From an uncultured Lachnospiraceae bacterium (GTDB lineage: Bacteria; Bacillota; Clostridia; Lachnospirales; Lachnospiraceae): a stretch of 63,995 nucleotides of DNA. The translations under genes and the position numbers were made by a program. Every line of letters begins with the position of its first letter. Positions within the stretch are counted from its first letter, which is position 1. This document shows, in pieces, positions 12,044 through 21,527 of this stretch. The stretch is from positions 1 to 63,995 of the forward strand of contig CANRLR010000014.1 in the NCBI GenBank assembly GCA_947631505.1, written 5' to 3'. A model generated the notes under the pieces. It ran no database searches. It saw only the letters and a program-made list of their open reading frames with translations, and was not told the origin of the DNA.

Positions 12044-13099
12044 TTAAAGTATTTTATCCAAAGCGTCAAATAAAGAGATCATCTGTTCATCAGTTCCGAC
12101 AGTAATACGGAGATAATCTTTAATTCTCTCCCCATTAAAGTGACGGACAAAGATTTTTTCTCTTCTCAATTTTTCAAATATTTCCTGCCCGGAAACACCC
12201 GGTTTTTTGGCAAAAAGGAAATTTGTCCGGGAATCAAGAACCTCAAACCCTCTCTTTTCCAATTCTGCTTTTGTCCATTTTCTTGTTGCCACTACCTGCT
12301 TCAACCGTTCCTGAAAATAATCTTCATCCCTAAGGGAAGCCGCACCGATACGGATAGATGCCGTTGTCATCGTATAGGAATTGATTGATTCCTTTACATC
12401 TGTCATCGCCTGTATCAGGCGTCTGTTTCCCATCGCGAACCCGATTCTCATTCCGGCAAGGGAACGGGATTTAGAATAAGTACGCACAACTAAAAGATTT
12501 TCATAGGTATCCAGCAGCGGAAGCACTGTTTCCCCTCCAAAGTCCACATACGCTTCATCTATTATTACAATCACGTCTGGATTTGACCGGATAATCTCTT
12601 CTAACTCTGAACGCTTCATCCCAAGTGAGGTCGGTGCATTCGGATTTGCAATAACAATACCGCCATTTTCCTTTTTATAATCCTCTGCACGAATACGAAA
12701 ATCCTCATCTAAAGCAGGACATTCATAAGGAATCCGGTAAACATCTGCCCAGACCGGATAAAAAGAGTAGGTAACATCCGGGAACAAAATCGGCTTATCC
12801 GAGTTAAAAAAGGTAAGAAAGGCTAAGGAAAGCACATCATCTGAGCCAACTCCTACAAAGACCTGCCCCTCTTCCAGACCATAATAGGTTTCCAGTCCGC
12901 GTACTAATTCTGTCGCTGAAGGATCCGGATAAAGAGCAAAACGAGTTACATCCAGCTCTTGAAATGTTTCATATACGCCCGGTGACGGTGGATATGGATT
13001 CTCATTGGTATTTAATTTAATGATTCCTGTTCCCTGAGGCTGCTCTCCCGGCACATAGGGTGTCACCTTACGAATATTGTCTTCCCATTTGTTTGTCAT
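12044..13099 (-). CDS. hisC: Histidinol-phosphate aminotransferase-type PLP enzyme
   Basis: This 351-residue fold-type I aminotransferase matches HisC, which forms histidinol phosphate from imidazole acetol phosphate. Visible motifs are KLNTNENPYPPSP (about 26-38), the PLP-binding IIDEAYVDFGG, and RTYSKSRSLAGMRIGFA with the Schiff-base lysine. No other his gene is nearby, so it may be an orphan copy or serve aromatic amino acids as well. The start is the ATG at 13097-13099, with GGAGG five bases before it; an upstream in-frame TTG would place that GGAGG inside the gene. Confidence 0.9.
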   Translation of the reverse strand: MTNKWEDNIRKVTPYVPGEQPQGTGIIKLNTNENPYPPSPGVYETFQELDVTRFALYPDPSATELVRGLETYYGLEEGQVFVGVGSDDVLSLAFLTFFNSDKPILFPDVTYSFYPVWADVYRIPYECPALDEDFRIRAEDYKKENGGIVIANPNAPTSLGMKRSELEEIIRSNPDVIVIIDEAYVDFGGETVLPLLDTYENLLVVRTYSKSRSLAGMRIGFAMGNRRLIQAMTDVKESINSYTMTTASIRIGAASLRDEDYFQERLKQVVATRKWTKAELEKRGFEVLDSRTNFLFAKKPGVSGQEIFEKLRREKIFVRHFNGERIKDYLRITVGTDEQMISLFDALDKIL

Positions 13100-13127
13100 A
13101 TTTTCCTCCAAAGTCTTTTATACACAT

Positions 13128-13183: not shown

Positions 13184-14839
13184 CTAATTATCCGTAATAC
13201 TGGCATAAGCATCTACAATACCATATCCCCACTCTGTATTAGGAAAAGGCTCTCCCCGCTGTACGGCACCACGGATGAAGATTTCCCTTAACATAATACC
13301 ATTAATAAAAAACCTGCTATAACGCTGCATGAACAAGGCTCCCACTCCGGCAGAAAAAGCTGCTGCCACACCTGTTCCTGTCATTGTCCCATAACGGTTT
13401 CTTGGATAAGGTCCGGTCAAATTAACACCGGGTGCTACTACTTCCGGCTTGACTTTCCCTGTTACCGTAAATCCTCTGCCTGCCTGCAGATAAAGAGAAT
13501 CCTCTACCACATCATAGGCAGAGACCGTAATCGTATAAGTACCGGTTCCCGAACTGGATATGGTGGTATCGGGATTTGGCTCCAGAAATACGACCTCTTC
13601 TGTCAAAAACTGACGGATCGGAAGCCATATATGAAAACCGGGCATCTCGTAATCTGCCGTTGTTCTAATTTTCCATATACCGGTCTTAGGTGAAATAAAT
13701 CTCATTGATACGACCTGTTCGTTAGAAATCTCCTGCGACTGTCCAAAGTACAATTCTACCACCGTGTTCTCTGTACTGAAACGTATCGTTCTCCGTTCTC
13801 CAATCATTACCTGTATTCCCGTATAGCTTTCTCCGCTCGGTGATGTAAAATCCAATTGCAGCTTCCCCGGTGACCTCCACCATAATTGAGCCATAAATCC
13901 GTCTAAACTACGCTCTACATTTATATTGATGGTGTCCTCCTTCCGGTTAATCAGATGATGATGTCTCGCATTCCCCTCATTTCCTGCACAGGCAATCATA
14001 GCCACTCCGGTCACCGCGGTGTACCGTTCCATGAACTGAGAGAGATAAGAGCCACCCTCATGGCTCCCCATATTACTTCCCAGACCGATGCATATAATCA
14101 CAGGTTTTCTCTCCCGCTGTGCCACATTCATAATATGGGCAATTCCTGTTAAAATATCATTTTCCTGATAAGCGGGAACATCTGACGGAATGCTGTAATA
14201 ATCCCGATATACCTGTTTGGCCTGTTTACATTTGACAATAACCAGTTCTGCCAGAGGAGCAACTCCTGAAAAACCTTCACTTCGCTTTTCATTCCCTGCC
14301 GCCACTCCGGCAAGAAATGTACCATGGCCATTTTCATCCCGGGTTTCCACTACCTCAAAGGGATTGTCTGCTGCCAGTGCCTGATCGATCTCATCCCTCT
14401 CATAAACACGCCCATAAGGAAAACTGTCACTTCCATCCCCTGACTCATTTGTCTGGTCCCAAATGGAAACGATCCTCGTCGTGTTATCTGCATTAATAAA
14501 AGCTTCATGGGTATAGTCAATTCCTGTATCCACAAATCCAATCAGCACGCCCTGTCCATATAAATCAAGATAAGGCTGTCTGCGTATCCGCAGGACTCCA
14601 CTGTCCTCCAGTGCTTCCTCACTCATCAGACCATATACGTTCGGAATTGTATTAAACCCATATCGTTCAATCGCCTCACTATTAATAACACTGGTTTCCC
14701 GATAAATAATTGCCTGAATGTTATCCAGTGGAAGATAACAGTCCGGCTGGTACAGCTGTCGGACATTTTCCTCACCCGGGTAATTATTGATCAGAAAATC
14801 CAATACATTTTCTGAAAATACGGCTTCTCTGCAAGTCAT
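13184..14839 (-). CDS. Csp-like S8 subtilase with catalytic Ser replaced by Gly
   Basis: This 551-residue protein has the layout of clostridial Csp subtilases: a short N-terminal prodomain-like region (about 1-95), then the S8 domain with a long jelly-roll-like insertion (about 300-440). The aspartate of VDTGIDY (D104) and the histidine of NGHGTFLAG (H172) are in place. At the nucleophile site, where GTS is expected, the sequence reads GTG (Gly490; codon GGT at 13372-13370). The frame is open and the fold motifs around it are kept, so this looks like an inactive homologue and not a decayed gene. In C. difficile, Csp pseudoproteases (CspA, CspC) control CspB and spore germination. No signal peptide is seen. 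The ATG at 14837-14839 has GGAATGGAGG upstream. It is divergent from tetR. Confidence 0.85.
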   Translation of the reverse strand: MTCREAVFSENVLDFLINNYPGEENVRQLYQPDCYLPLDNIQAIIYRETSVINSEAIERYGFNTIPNVYGLMSEEALEDSGVLRIRRQPYLDLYGQGVLIGFVDTGIDYTHEAFINADNTTRIVSIWDQTNESGDGSDSFPYGRVYERDEIDQALAADNPFEVVETRDENGHGTFLAGVAAGNEKRSEGFSGVAPLAELVIVKCKQAKQVYRDYYSIPSDVPAYQENDILTGIAHIMNVAQRERKPVIICIGLGSNMGSHEGGSYLSQFMERYTAVTGVAMIACAGNEGNARHHHLINRKEDTININVERSLDGFMAQLWWRSPGKLQLDFTSPSGESYTGIQVMIGERRTIRFSTENTVVELYFGQSQEISNEQVVSMRFISPKTGIWKIRTTADYEMPGFHIWLPIRQFLTEEVVFLEPNPDTTISSSGTGTYTITVSAYDVVEDSLYLQAGRGFTVTGKVKPEVVAPGVNLTGPYPRNRYGTMTGTGVAAAFSAGVGALFMQRYSRFFINGIMLREIFIRGAVQRGEPFPNTEWGYGIVDAYASITDN

Positions 14840-14915
14840 AATTTCCTCCATTCCGAAATATTGCCATTCTTTCTATTTTATTCTTCGGAACGATTGTCCT
14901 ATGCAGCCCTTTTCT

Positions 14916-14987: not shown

Positions 14988-15584
14988 GTGAAAAATCATC
15001 CGACGATAGCAGCCGAAATACAAGACGAGAGATATCATGTGGCAGACGAAGCCATCTATGATGCATTCTTTTTAGTTCTAAAAGAGAAAGATTTAGAAAA
15101 AATTACAGTTTCTGACGTGATAAAAAGAGCCGGAATTGTACGAAGTACATTCTATAATCATTATGAAAATATTCCCGCTCTCATAACTGCCGTGGAAGAT
15201 AAAACAATTCAGGATATATTTTCCCTTATGGAAACATTTCATCCTAAAAATGATAAAGATATGTGTAAATCCTATTTTCTGACCATTTGCAATTACACTT
15301 TGACCAATCCATTTTTAGCCACTCTCCTTGGTAGTCCGCGGGTAGATGCTTTTTTTGAGAAAATGATGACTATGTTCCACCGCTATGTATCACAGGTCAC
15401 TCAAAGCACAACTGCCTCTCTGCACAGCAAAGAGGAAATATCCTATCTGATTGCGTGCGCGATCGGAAGTACCCTCGGTGTTCTTCATAAATGGACCAGA
15501 GATAATTTCCAATTGCCCGCTGAAACGATTGCCGATATTCTGACGCAGTCCTTTATTGCAGGAGTTCTCCCTTTCCTGTCATAA
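14988..15584 (+). CDS. TetR/AcrR family transcriptional regulator
   Basis: This 198-residue protein has an N-terminal TetR helix-turn-helix (about 20-65). The recognition part is ITVSDVIKRAGIVRSTFYNHYEN, of which the VRSTFYNHY segment is typical. The C-terminal part is an all-helical ligand-binding domain of the TetR_C_7/DUF type. The start is a GTG at 14988-14990, with AGGAGGG five bases before it. It is divergent from the subtilase and convergent with the ligase of the condensation-ACP-ligase operon, 62 nt away. It could control either; no ligand can be named. Confidence 0.88.
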   Translation: MKNHPTIAAEIQDERYHVADEAIYDAFFLVLKEKDLEKITVSDVIKRAGIVRSTFYNHYENIPALITAVEDKTIQDIFSLMETFHPKNDKDMCKSYFLTICNYTLTNPFLATLLGSPRVDAFFEKMMTMFHRYVSQVTQSTTASLHSKEEISYLIACAIGSTLGVLHKWTRDNFQLPAETIADILTQSFIAGVLPFLS

Positions 15585-15612
15585 CACGACGGCTTCCGTT
15601 TGAGCCGTCGTG
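15585..15612. terminator. Hairpin between tetR and the ligase gene
   Basis: A perfect 10-bp stem CACGACGGCT / AGCCGTCGTG lies right after the tetR stop. The T-run is poor, so it is a probable terminator for the two convergent genes and not a certain one. Confidence 0.6.
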
Positions 15613-15646
15613 CCTGTGCAGACCTGCTAGTGTACTGTCTCTTAAA

Positions 15647-17176
15647 CTAGTCAATCATAGCTTCCTGTCTCTTAATTTTCTTGGTCGAGCTTCTGGCAAA
15701 CGGATTTTTTCTTACGACCAGCCCCGTAATCTGGCGATAGGTAGGCTGATTTTTATTATATTCATCCAAAAAGGCCTGCAATGCTGCCTGCGTCTGCTCC
15801 TCATTCAGAGCCTTCGCTGCAACCACTTCCTGATCTGGATAAATTCTTGCTGTAAGTCCGTTTTTCTCTCCTGTTACAATAACCTCTCCTACAAACTCAC
15901 CAAGAGCTAATTTGTTTTCAATTTCCTCTGGAGAAATGTTTTCTCCATTGGAAAGTATAATCAAGTTCTTTACACGACCGTTGATAAATAGAAACCCGTC
16001 ATCATCCAAGTACCCTTTATCTCCGGTATGAAGCCAGCCATCCTTCAGCGTTTCTGCTGTTTCTTCCGGCATCTTGTAATAACCTTTCATCACACTGCTG
16101 CCTTTTACCAGAATCTCTCCGTTATCAAATGCAACCTCCACATTGGACAGAGGTCTTCCAATGGAACCAGCCTTATGATCCTCCGGTGTATTGGAGCTGA
16201 TAACCGGTGAGCATTCTGACATCCCATATCCCTCATAAATGTCCACTCCGAATTCCGCAAATTTATCAATGTAATAGGGATCAAGATGAGCACCACCGAC
16301 AAATATAATGCTGAGCTTCCCGCCAAATACATTCTCTGCCAGAACCTTTTTCGGAATCGCAGTGTCTGCGGCAGCAAGTCTCTTGTATATTGTTTCTACC
16401 ATCATCGGAACCATGAGAACCACATCCGGCTTAAATATGCCCATGTTCCTCACCATATGCAAAAGAGAATCATTAATACATACCGTTGCCCCTAAGGAAA
16501 ATCCCTTGAGCCAGTCCATAACCAAACAAAACGCATGATGAATCGGAAGAACACTAAGCATTACACTTCCCGGCTCTCTTGTATAATTCACAGAAATTAC
16601 GTTTGCTGCCAAATTATTCTGTGTCAGCATGACCCCCTTGCTTTTCCCCGTTGTTCCTGATGTAAAAATTATCGTTGCCAGATCGTCCGGACCGGGTCTG
16701 TCCGAATCCCGGCCGGCTTTCTCAGAAGCTGCTTTCAGATCTGCCAGTGATTCAACCCGTTCATCGGATGTCTCTTCCTCCTGCAACAGCCAGATTTTCT
16801 TTATATGGGGACATCCCGCTATTACTGCGTCCAAAAGTGCGATTCCCTTCGGACTCAGAAAAAGTGCTTCGGAATCGGAACGATTCAGAAGGTCAATCAA
16901 GTCCTCAGCGGGAAGACCTGCATCTAACGGCACAGCTACCGTATTCCCTGTTATGATTCCCAGATAACTTTCAATCCACTCTACCGAACTGGTCCCGATA
17001 AGAGCAATGTGTGTTCCCTGAAAACCCTCTGCGAGCAGGCCTCTTCTCAACGCTGCCACATTTTTCATTATCCCGCAATAACTTCTCTCAAAGATTTCCT
17101 TTTTCTTTAACCACTTTACGGCCGGAATCTCTGAATATTTTTTTTCACTTTCTTCTAATATATCTCGAATCAGCAT
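15647..17176 (-). CDS. AMP-forming acyl/aminoacyl ligase (ANL family)
   Basis: This 509-residue ANL enzyme activates a carboxylic acid as an adenylate and passes it to a thiol. The AMP-binding loop IIFTSGTTGKSKG (about 172-184), the YGMSECSPV motif (about 321-329), the GWLHTGD hinge, GRVKNLII and a C-terminal lysine in STKKIKR (A10-type, within ten residues of the end) are all present. It resembles acyl-CoA/acyl-ACP synthetases more than classical NRPS adenylation domains. Its direct neighbour is a free acyl carrier protein, so loading of that carrier is the simplest reading. The ATG at 17174-17176 has GGAGGTG upstream. It is the last gene of the three-gene operon. Confidence 0.88.
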   Translation of the reverse strand: MLIRDILEESEKKYSEIPAVKWLKKKEIFERSYCGIMKNVAALRRGLLAEGFQGTHIALIGTSSVEWIESYLGIITGNTVAVPLDAGLPAEDLIDLLNRSDSEALFLSPKGIALLDAVIAGCPHIKKIWLLQEEETSDERVESLADLKAASEKAGRDSDRPGPDDLATIIFTSGTTGKSKGVMLTQNNLAANVISVNYTREPGSVMLSVLPIHHAFCLVMDWLKGFSLGATVCINDSLLHMVRNMGIFKPDVVLMVPMMVETIYKRLAAADTAIPKKVLAENVFGGKLSIIFVGGAHLDPYYIDKFAEFGVDIYEGYGMSECSPVISSNTPEDHKAGSIGRPLSNVEVAFDNGEILVKGSSVMKGYYKMPEETAETLKDGWLHTGDKGYLDDDGFLFINGRVKNLIILSNGENISPEEIENKLALGEFVGEVIVTGEKNGLTARIYPDQEVVAAKALNEEQTQAALQAFLDEYNKNQPTYRQITGLVVRKNPFARSSTKKIKRQEAMID

Positions 17177-17234
17177 TCCTCTATTCACCTCCATACGAAA
17201 ATTGCGTTACCGTTACAAATCTTTTTTTCCTCTC

Positions 17235-17465
17235 TTATTGCAGCTGTTCCATTAATTCAAGTGCTTCTGCAATTGTATGAACCTGTAATACATCTTCCTG
17301 TTCCAGTTCAATGTCAAAAGTATCCTCCAGTTCTCCCAGGAATGACATAAAATCAAGAGAACTGAACCCTAAATCTTCCCGGAATCTCATATCCTGATTC
17401 ATTTCCTCCGGTTTTACCTCACAATACTGTGCTACTATCTTTTTAAACTGCATTTCCTTTGTCAT
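17235..17465 (-). CDS. Free-standing acyl/peptidyl carrier protein
   Basis: This is a 76-residue carrier protein. The phosphopantetheine attachment motif is DLGFSSLDF, with Ser36 as the modified residue. The acidic helix II region and total length are typical of ACPs. It is not the fatty-acid AcpP, because no fab genes are near. It sits between a ligase (59 nt downstream) and a condensation-domain protein (28 nt upstream) on the same strand, so it probably shuttles the activated acyl group between them. Confidence 0.92.
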   Translation of the reverse strand: MTKEMQFKKIVAQYCEVKPEEMNQDMRFREDLGFSSLDFMSFLGELEDTFDIELEQEDVLQVHTIAEALELMEQLQ

Positions 17466-17493
17466 AGTCTGTTTTTTCCCTTTCTGTCATTTT

Positions 17494-18879
17494 TTACACC
17501 TGCTCCATAATTTCTCCGATACTCATATCCGGCTCAGCAATTCCTTTAAAAAGAATACGCATCATATAATAATATAAAAGTTCCATATCATGCTCCTCTA
17601 AGTGGGCCGTCTGATAATGGAAAGAGAAATTCATTCCTCCGTTCTCAGTATGAGATACCGTCAAATACATTTTTTTCGTAGCCGCACCATTCGCAAACCA
17701 TTTGGAATGCTGCGGAATGTTAATAAGGTGAGGATTTTCCATTTTCACCGGCATCGGCTGGTATGTGAGATAACAGCTTTCATAAACGGTATCTTCCGGC
17801 GTATGATAACGTCTGCGCATTTCTTCCTGAATCCATGCAGGATCAAAATTGCTGTGCATATAAATTTTATTCTGAATATTCTGAATCTCATAAGCCGCTG
17901 CCAAAAATTCTGTTTCTGCCGGAATCACTGTCCGGCAGGGAAACATAATTGTCCGGCTTCCGCCAGATGTCCATTCATCATGGGTGGAACGTCTTGAAAT
18001 AAAATTCTGAATCGTAATATCCTCCTGCCCATTGTTTACCTTGGACAGATAAGTCCGGATTCCTAATAGTAACAGGTTTGTCATGGACAACTGATGATTC
18101 ATACAGAAATCCATCAGATTTTTCGTTGGCTCCGGCTCCAGAATGTAATCCTTTACCTCCACAAATAAATTTTTCTTTTCAATATCGGCCGCTCTCAGAT
18201 TTTTTTGATTATGCCGTTTCCTTGACTCCTCCAAAACAGAAGATCCCTGAATATCTGAGTATAAAGGCTCTCCCAACATATCCAGCTGTTCTTCCCAGAA
18301 CCTCTTATCCTTTGAAAAGCGTTTCTCATTTCCCGCCCTTTTCAAATCCTTTTTGAGAACCTCTTCATAATCTGCCAATTCCTTAGGAAATTGCGAGCAG
18401 AACCGATAATGGGTATAGAGCTGCATTAAGTCATTAATCATTACTACCAGACCGCAGGAATCAATCAGGCGGTGGTCCATATGAACAAAAAATCCATGAT
18501 ATCCCTCTGGAAGCTTTAGCATTGTCACATCGCACAATGGAATATCATCTCCATCAAAGGTTTCATACGCCCACTGCTGCATCAAATAATCTGCCTCCGC
18601 AAGACTCATGCCGGACAAATCCTTTAATGGAATATCTCTTGTTTCTTTCTCCACAACATATTGTTTTACCTCCCCGTTCTCATCGGGTTTTGTAAAGCGG
18701 ACTCTCATGCAGCCATAACGCTCAAATTCTAACTGAATACATTTTTTTAACAATCCAAAATCCAATGGGGATTTTAATGATGCTACAACACTGACACCAG
18801 ACACCTGCTGCGTCTTGTAAGTCTGTATCCAGCTGTGATGCATTTTTTGCGCTGCTGTTAAAGGATAATATTCTCTCAT
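17494..18879 (-). CDS. Free-standing NRPS-type condensation domain protein
   Basis: This 461-residue protein spans one condensation-domain fold (CoA-dependent acyltransferase superfamily). The N-terminal YYPLTAAQ motif, the RFW-x-EQL segment (about 205-211) and a second half with an IQNFISRRS-type floor loop are visible. The catalytic HHxxxDG motif appears as DHRLIDS (135-141). The second histidine and the aspartate are kept, while the first histidine and glycine are changed. It could join the ACP-bound acyl group to an amine or alcohol; the acceptor is unknown. The ATG at 18877-18879 has AGGAGG six bases upstream. It is the first gene of the operon, with a perfect dyad about 100 nt upstream. 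Confidence 0.82.
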   Translation of the reverse strand: MREYYPLTAAQKMHHSWIQTYKTQQVSGVSVVASLKSPLDFGLLKKCIQLEFERYGCMRVRFTKPDENGEVKQYVVEKETRDIPLKDLSGMSLAEADYLMQQWAYETFDGDDIPLCDVTMLKLPEGYHGFFVHMDHRLIDSCGLVVMINDLMQLYTHYRFCSQFPKELADYEEVLKKDLKRAGNEKRFSKDKRFWEEQLDMLGEPLYSDIQGSSVLEESRKRHNQKNLRAADIEKKNLFVEVKDYILEPEPTKNLMDFCMNHQLSMTNLLLLGIRTYLSKVNNGQEDITIQNFISRRSTHDEWTSGGSRTIMFPCRTVIPAETEFLAAAYEIQNIQNKIYMHSNFDPAWIQEEMRRRYHTPEDTVYESCYLTYQPMPVKMENPHLINIPQHSKWFANGAATKKMYLTVSHTENGGMNFSFHYQTAHLEEHDMELLYYYMMRILFKGIAEPDMSIGEIMEQV

Positions 18880-18982
18880 GCGTAACCTCCTCTTTTCTTC
18901 TTCCATGAAGTTATCACAATTTATTTTTATTTACCAGTCCCTCTGGGACTTAACATACAGTTTACCCAAAATTGACCGAGAC

Positions 18983-20044: not shown

Positions 20045-21433
20045 TTACTGCCCCCGCATCAAAATAGCCGGTGCACCTTTCCCTTCAATGTAATCTTTTG
20101 TGATTACCACTTTTCCAATCATCTCATCTTTCGGAATCTCATACATAATATCCATCATAAACTGCTCGATAATAGAGCGGAGTGCCCTTGCTCCTGTCTT
20201 TTTCGCTGCTGCCTTTCTCGCCACGGCACGAAGTGCCTCCTCTTCAAACTCCAGATCCACCTCATCCATCTGAAGCAATTTCTGGTACTGCTTCACAATG
20301 GCATTACGGGGCTTTGTAAGCACCTCCACCAATAAATCCTCATCCATTGCCTCAAGAGAAAATACAATCGGAAGACGGCCGATAAATTCGGGAATCAATC
20401 CATATTCACGAATATCTTCCGTTTCGACTCTGGCAAATAAATCTTTATCATGGTCATATTTATCGCGAAGTTCAGAGCCGAATCCCATCGTTCCCTGTTT
20501 CGTCAGGCGTTTCTTAATAATATCTTCCAGTCCGGGAAACGCTCCGCCGCAGATAAATAAAATATGACTGGTATTTACCGTTGTCATCGGCACCATAGCA
20601 TTTTTATTAGTCGCTCCTACCGGAACCTCGATATCCGCTCCCTCAAGAAGTTTCAATAATGCCTGCTGAACAGACTCACCGCTGACATCCCTTGTGTTTG
20701 CATTTTGCTTTTTTGCAATTTTGTCGATCTCATCAATATATACAATTCCCCGCTCTGCCAGCTCTACATCATTGTCCGCATTGGCAAGCAGTTTAGAGAT
20801 AACACTTTCCACATCATCACCGATATAACCAGCCTCTGTCAAGGCAGTAGCATCCGTAATAGCAAGCGGTACCTGTAACAGACGTGCCATCGTTTTCACC
20901 ATAAAGGTCTTTCCACTTCCCGTTGGCCCAAGCAACAGCATATTCGACTTTTCAATCTCAACACCGGGAGCTTCACTGTTTTCTCTTTGTTTCTCTGCCA
21001 ATACCCGTTTGTAGTGGTTATATACACCAACTGCCAATATTTTCTTTGCCCGCTCCTGCCCCATAACGTATTCATCCAGATTTCCTTTAATAACATGAGG
21101 TGCCGGCAATTGATTAATATCTAATACTGGTTTTTCCTTTTTTTCTTTTTTCTTTGTCTTTACTTTATGACGTTCCTGAAATTCCGTAGGCGGCTCCATT
21201 CCCATCGCACCAAGGTTGATTATCTCCATACCCGGTATCTGCGGCATTCCCTGCATTCCGATCTGGTCAAATGTTTTTTGCATACAGTCCGAACAGATTG
21301 TAATATTATTCGGAATCGTAATCATTTTATCCACTTTACTCTCGGGACGGTGACACATATAACAAATTCGTTCATAACCCCCATTGTTATTATCATCCTT
21401 TTTTTCAACATCATCTATATTGTTTTCACTCAT
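20045..21433 (-). CDS. clpX: ATP-dependent Clp protease ATP-binding subunit ClpX
   Basis: This 462-residue AAA+ unfoldase feeds proteins to ClpP. The N-terminal zinc-binding domain has CYMC and CSDC pairs (about 22-50). Walker A is LGPTGSGKT (about 168-176), Walker B IVYIDEIDKIAKK, and the ClpP-contacting and sensor regions (IPEFIGRLPIVF) are present. clpP is not adjacent. The start is the ATG at 21431-21433, with a GGAATGGAGG ribosome-binding site; an earlier in-frame ATG has none. A short acidic Asn-rich insert follows the start. The gene is followed closely by the alpha/beta hydrolase gene. Confidence 0.96.
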   Translation of the reverse strand: MSENNIDDVEKKDDNNNGGYERICYMCHRPESKVDKMITIPNNITICSDCMQKTFDQIGMQGMPQIPGMEIINLGAMGMEPPTEFQERHKVKTKKKEKKEKPVLDINQLPAPHVIKGNLDEYVMGQERAKKILAVGVYNHYKRVLAEKQRENSEAPGVEIEKSNMLLLGPTGSGKTFMVKTMARLLQVPLAITDATALTEAGYIGDDVESVISKLLANADNDVELAERGIVYIDEIDKIAKKQNANTRDVSGESVQQALLKLLEGADIEVPVGATNKNAMVPMTTVNTSHILFICGGAFPGLEDIIKKRLTKQGTMGFGSELRDKYDHDKDLFARVETEDIREYGLIPEFIGRLPIVFSLEAMDEDLLVEVLTKPRNAIVKQYQKLLQMDEVDLEFEEEALRAVARKAAAKKTGARALRSIIEQFMMDIMYEIPKDEMIGKVVITKDYIEGKGAPAILMRGQ

Positions 21434-21463
21434 GCTATCCCTCCATTCCGCAGCATTACTTAT

Positions 21464-21527
21464 AATAAGCCCCATCGGATTTCTTTACGATGGGACTTAT
21501 TATACACGATTCTATTCAATTAGTAAA
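21464..21527 (-). promoter_or_regulatory. clpX promoter overlapped by a 14-bp dyad
   Basis: On the minus strand TTTACT (21527-21522), a 17-nt spacer and TATAAT (21504-21499) form a plausible promoter. A 14-bp inverted repeat (arms 21464-21477 and 21488-21501, one mismatch) overlaps the -10 box and start site. It could be a repressor site for clpX or a weak htrA terminator. Confidence 0.5.

Follow-up and report, generated by a model that had tools for sequence, protein, structure and literature searches.

A Csp-family subtilase with glycine at the catalytic serine position in an uncultured Lachnospiraceae bacterium

The window analysed here is a stretch of 63,995 nucleotides from an uncultured Lachnospiraceae bacterium (GenBank assembly GCA_947631505.1, contig CANRLR010000014.1, positions 1 to 63,995), and its minus strand encodes at 13184..14839 a 551-residue subtilase of the S8 family, P0001, in which the catalytic serine is replaced by glycine (Gly490). 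Judged from its sequence, P0001 is a Csp-family subtilase of the CspA/CspC type and is predicted to be catalytically dead. The preferred reading, to which we give an even chance of being correct, is that it serves as a non-catalytic, CspA/CspC-like partner of a CspB-like protease, its serine having been lost before a species split and its fold having been kept. The observations that support this reading are the change in the triad, its shared ancestry, constraint along the window branch, the Csp fold, an intact CspB-like paralogue in the same genome and the restriction of this gene, within the genus, to genomes with spoIVA.

The gene, assigned from sequence, domain and structure matches, is open throughout from an ATG at 14839 and is preceded by a Shine-Dalgarno-like GGAGG (14845..14849, minus strand). 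Its product matches PF00082 (S8 subtilase) with 99.1 bits (cut-off 21.8). In a MAFFT alignment of 39 rows (P0001 and 38 relatives), the triad residues Asp104 in DTGID (14528..14530) and His172 in GHGT (14324..14326) are kept, as is the oxyanion-hole Asn287 in AGNEGN (13979..13981), all on the minus strand. The serine column holds G490, encoded by GGT at 13370..13372 of the same strand; the segment reads MTGTGVAAAFSAG in P0001 versus, for example, MTGTSVAAALSAG in the genus relative L009. The protein therefore lacks the Asp-His-Ser set of an active Csp and shares the loss of serine with pseudoproteases, while the published C. difficile state, in which two triad residues are lost, differs from the retention of D104 and H172 found here. 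The initial annotation, which had proposed a Csp-type subtilase with an intact frame, conserved Asp and His and Gly490 at the nucleophile, is borne out by these columns, by the uninterrupted 551 codons and by the structural matches below. It had also named an active serine under a shifted alignment as grounds for abandoning the proposal; this was looked for and none was obtained, and an alternative nucleophile is ruled out since P0001 has neither Ser nor Cys nor Thr in the serine column.

Searches with the AlphaFold2 (AF2) model of P0001 return C. difficile CspC, C. difficile CspA and C. perfringens CspB as the top structural matches, and the predicted fold includes both the prodomain and the jellyroll insertion of these proteins. 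The N-terminal prodomain would span approximately residues 1-80 (14600..14839, minus strand), the CspC and CspA chains aligning from model residue 12-13. A beta-rich insertion at approximately residues 294-405 (13625..13960, minus strand), delimited from the secondary structure of the model and from Csp folds, lies at the position of the jellyroll domain, a feature that passages of PMC12880746 call a Csp hallmark. P0001 scores 281 bits against the NCBIfam CspBA model (curated cut-off 1250) and 255 bits against the CspC model (cut-off 675), both models being of the 'exception' type and apparently narrow; because it falls under both cut-offs, it is assigned to neither CspBA nor CspC.

Among proteins of known structure, the best sequence match of P0001 is the C. 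difficile pseudoprotease CspA (PDB 9PR9, 9PR8; 1.3e-61), which has Gln and Ala at the positions where His and Gly align in P0001. CspA is described as being made in fusion with CspB, whereas P0001 is a single protein and the CspB-like paralogue a separate gene. C. difficile CspC (PDB 6MW4), listed in part of PMC6636752 as D105, T170 and G485, is about 26% identical to P0001. The glycine of P0001 is taken as a change separate from that of CspC because 17 of 19 genus orthologues keep Ser; CspC itself stood outside the trees that were built. C. perfringens CspB (PDB 4I0W) is described as a protease that processes itself and has all three triad residues, unlike P0001 with its missing serine. Intact CspA-type Csps of the genus, such as L009 (HAN043), are positional orthologues in the order clpX-csp-hisC, 68% identical to P0001, and differ from the window copy in having Ser at the nucleophile and, in L009 and most of the others, an upstream -10 motif.

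The genus set comprises 39 genomes, in which 19 orthologues cover the nucleophile site and two more (G013, G030) end before it. Seventeen of the 19 carry Ser, and two carry Gly: P0001 and L010, the latter from Lachnoclostridium sp. UBA7215 (G003), Lachnospiraceae by taxonomy. The IQ-TREE phylogeny pairs these two as sisters (support 99/96), as do 99% of 200 bootstrap trees. Glycine is encoded by GGT in both, serine in the orthologues by AGT (11) or AGC (6), and the simplest account would be a single A-to-G change that predates the split of the window species and UBA7215. Gly490 is thus, on the evidence of these genes, characteristic of the lineage rather than an isolated event. Serine in the orthologues of close strains had been named in advance as a sign of a one-off mutation or a sequencing error; serine does prevail, but the sister shares the glycine, and both explanations are ruled out by its presence in the independent assembly of that species.

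Selection on the gene was estimated with a codon branch model (12 taxa, 439 codons), which gave an overall omega of 0.088 and, for the window branch, 0.074 versus 0.089 elsewhere (p = 0.59). The length of the window branch, 0.24, falls within the 0.016-0.31 spanned by the ten Ser rows of the same clade. These figures are rough, and they indicate that the window gene stayed constrained after the serine was lost; such purifying selection fits the earlier suggestion that the protein is kept for a non-catalytic job.

Within the genus, the csp orthologue is confined to genomes with spoIVA. spoIVA is present in 25 of the 39 genomes and a csp orthologue in 21, all 21 of them spoIVA-positive, and none of the 14 spoIVA-negative genomes carries csp, in counts that are uncorrected for phylogeny and include many incomplete assemblies. 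The window genome has spoIVA and one GerA-family match. A search of it with P0001 returned two other subtilases: L003, a shorter S8 protein of 308 aa, and L002, on contig C11 (the window being contig C14), in which all triad positions are intact. L002, with its intact triad, is a candidate for the active paralogue for which the initial annotation had advised looking elsewhere in the genome. On the CspBA model it aligns to the CspB half (391 bits, positions 5-520) and P0001 to the CspA half (281 bits, positions 632-1091), both scores lying far under the cut-off. Ser and His are kept in all 24 CspB-like rows, which were sampled within the genus only. L002 and P0001 lie on different contigs, so the arrangement of a cspBA-cspC locus is not reproduced. 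The CspB-like gene of the window genome stands one gene away from a sigK-like gene (L197:7522-11426), and that of G003 lies directly behind a sigK-like gene and overlaps it (L185:11272-12343).

The preferred reading would begin with a common ancestor of the window species and UBA7215 in which a single A-to-G transition in an AGY codon turned Ser into Gly and removed the nucleophile; selection would then have kept the fold in the window lineage. Autoprocessing of CspB requires the catalytic Ser, as stated in part of PMC3567191; P0001 would be unable to cleave its own prodomain and would remain uncleaved. It would be packed into the spore and would bind or regulate the CspB-like protease, as has been proposed for C. 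difficile CspC and CspA towards CspB, and passages of PMC12880746 describe a CspC:CspA heterodimer for which a place upstream of CspB and SleC is proposed. The CspB-like protease would then activate a putative SleC-like cortex hydrolase. With D104, H172 and N287 kept, P0001 may bind a substrate-like segment without cutting it, which is the least certain step.

Several observations weigh against this scheme. CspC lost its His (T170) as well as its Ser, whereas P0001 keeps His172. The branch to UBA7215 is relaxed (omega 0.254 versus 0.084, p = 0.0007), the two Gly branches and their stem together mildly so (0.129 versus 0.083, p = 0.028), and all omega values are rough given saturated synonymous sites (0.5-4.6 neutral changes per codon). 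Measured against nine of ten representative Ser rows, departures from invariant columns average 11.1 in P0001, at the upper end of the 0-12 of the Ser rows themselves, and 12.1 in L010. The sister csp gene of UBA7215 is split by an element. Four spoIVA-positive genomes (G014, G029, G031, G033) are without csp, so the gene is not required by every spore former. The promoter also differs. A -10 motif C[AG]TANANT, called sigma-E-like by comparison with the sigma-E/sigma-K consensus, precedes the start by 28-39 nt in 11 of the 13 other csp copies compared within the genus, near-identical ones being left out (shuffled mean 0.63, maximum 4 in 300 rounds); it occurs in one of seven more distant csp upstream regions and is thus a genus feature only. 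No such motif lies within 150 nt of the window csp start, and the only match in the sister UBA7215 is 63 nt upstream, within the clpX reading frame. This absence counts against simple conservation of sporulation control. A scan for sigma-70 promoters and terminators around the window gene gave no excess over shuffles.

How general the loss is was gauged in 397 genomes taken as Lachnospiraceae, of which 262 have P0001 matches at E <= 1e-20. Of the listed places, 109 (29 + 80) were aligned with 37 earlier rows to give 146 rows, 145 of them different after one duplicate; lower-ranked places, one contig-end place (G039) and unlisted matches were left out, and the sample leans towards close P0001 matches. 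All 109 survey rows are nearer to P0001 than to the CspB-like paralogue, and the 146 divide into 7 CspB-like and 139 CspA-type rows. The latter have Ser in 132 cases, Gly in six (P0001, L010, L116, L136, L138, L160) and Cys in one, the interrupted gene L022, whose C-half (L022:132-1547) carries TGT at the catalytic position. A quick tree with SH-aLRT as its sole support measure requires three changes to Gly, a number that its well-supported branches make unavoidable: one in {P0001, L010}, one in {L160, L136, L138} (support 100) and one in L116 alone. We suggest, tentatively and with rather less than even confidence, that Lachnospiraceae evolved the C. difficile-style division between a cutting CspB and dead CspA/CspC-type sensors on three or more independent occasions, a CspA-type protein having exchanged Ser for Gly in every case. 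The recurrence of Gly needs no special cause because 119 of 139 Ser rows use AGY codons, from which Gly is an easy single step; for the same reason a selective preference of Gly over Ala need not be invoked. Residue 495 is Phe or His in 6/6 Gly rows, but an accompanying substitution there is unconvincing, since 42 of 132 Ser rows have one of these residues too and the Gly rows go back to only three origins. In G302 a Gly-type csp stands behind an intact csp on the same strand with 1.4 kb between them (L172:6510-11398), a layout that recalls the csp locus of C. difficile.

The same rows bear on an alternative in which the CspB-like protease cuts and thereby made catalysis by the CspA-type protein dispensable. 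Its Ser would have been lost by neutral change, and the protein would go on in a long-standing structural or chaperone role, unchanged and with no new regulatory function. The single transition from AGY would make such a loss easy, and all three Gly origins are of the CspA type while the CspB-like rows hold on to their serine. We nonetheless regard it as unlikely: the retention of Ser in nearly all CspA-type rows implies that activity is normally selected for, and none of the five uninterrupted Gly rows has lost Asp, His or Asn.

A pseudogene in the making, having lost first its Ser and then its sporulation promoter, would agree with the missing -10 motif and with the relaxed and interrupted sister copy. 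Early decay of this kind is improbable in the window lineage, where the frame is intact, omega is low and the branch length falls within the range of Ser-bearing relatives.

The surroundings of the gene suggest a further possibility. Upstream of csp, the closest conserved gene is clpX-like in 16 of the 19 other genus genomes compared, at a gap of up to about 0.8 kb (G035, G037 and G021 have no clpX in the 5-kb flank, and G023 was left out), and hisC usually lies downstream in the genomes examined. The window retains both, a ClpX-family ATPase gene at 20045..21484 and hisC at 12044..13111 on the minus strand. Neighbourhood comparison and domain matches place three genes between the ATPase gene and csp: a divergent TetR regulator (14988..15584, plus strand), an AMP-binding ligase (15647..17194, minus strand) and a condensation-domain protein (17494..18906, minus strand). 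By this comparison the window csp sits in the ancestral clpX-csp-hisC slot and the three genes are a later insertion; relocation of csp itself is ruled out. The earlier description of a csp standing alone next to a TetR gene, with no other csp in view, holds within the window, but the TetR gene is not native to the locus and the CspB-like paralogue lies on another contig. The inserted genes (14988-18906) possibly form a small biosynthetic unit. Recruitment of P0001 to a task outside the spore, regulated by this cassette, would suit the insertion upstream and the unmatched genus -10 motif; it is very improbable, given spoIVA and GerA in the organism, a model that retains the whole Csp fold and nothing else found that connects csp to the cassette. 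It is scarcely credible that P0001 retains protease activity by way of a different nucleophile or alternative alignment, despite its conserved D, H and N, for position 490 offers no Ser, Cys or Thr and T489 is the usual Thr of GTS, seen in 92 of 132 Ser rows.

Interruption of csp genes extends beyond the sister species. The Gly csp of UBA7215 is cut between the DTG and GID of its catalytic Asp motif by a 10.8-kb element that carries three large serine recombinases. Nine loci chosen for an interrupted csp amount to nine such genes, spread over eight genomes; seven are CspA-type and two CspB-type. The CspA-type genes are interrupted exactly at DTG (L052:551-12949 in G003, L020:1400-6410, L176:3992-13910, L053, L177, L178 and L022), and the CspB-like genes are cut at the same codons (L185:8377-11706 in G003, L186:5191-6546 in G011). 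Among these loci, an attL-like motif, GAT[AT]CNGGGGA[AG][CT]G[AT]GTTA, occurs at seven N-halves and an attR-like motif, TAACANNAGAGGG[AG]AT, at six C-halves. Searched in the 397 family genomes, an attL pattern gave three matches, all csp N-halves, and its reversed control gave none among the matches listed. Both halves lie on one contig for four genes, with elements of 10.8, 8.2, 3.3 and 1.6 kb, and serine recombinases are found inside all three CspA-type cases of this kind (L052, L020, L176). G003 has an interruption in each of its two csp genes; that in the CspB-like one is the 1.6-kb element, which has no recombinase among its open reading frames of 100 aa or more and would need one in trans. 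Two different elements, those of 3.3 kb (L020:3442-4842) and 1.6 kb (L185:9804-11162), each carry a protein with the same combination of hemerythrin and receiver domains. Analogues are described in skin in sigK, SP-beta in spsM, gin in gerE and yin in yabG; the term csp is absent from the main text of PMC5595907. The csp elements are candidate skin/gin-like sporulation-gene intervening elements in germination genes, with putative excision during sporulation. No earlier report of intervening elements in csp genes was found in titles and abstract openings of one open library.

The statement that Lachnospiraceae Csps have intact triads is reportedly taken from Kevorkian et al. In passages of PMC6636752, Clostridiaceae and Lachnospiraceae are said to make exclusively Csps with intact triads, and those of PMC12880746 again predict all of them to be active; these two C. 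difficile papers, of 2019 and 2026, present Csp pseudoproteases as a Peptostreptococcaceae trait. Parts of PMC8401671 and PMC7490687 call Csps conserved in Lachnospiraceae and say nothing further. A search of titles and abstract openings in one open library found no earlier report of Lachnospiraceae Csp pseudoproteases. P0001 and the five further Gly rows contradict the published all-intact statement for Lachnospiraceae. If functional, the Gly Csps would be natural, independent replicates of the step from protease to regulator, and would let one ask what a dead Csp does with its His present. If the division between cutting CspB and dead sensors did arise repeatedly, soluble pseudoprotease germinant receptors would be something that spore formers have invented several times, rather than a speciality of Peptostreptococcaceae alone.
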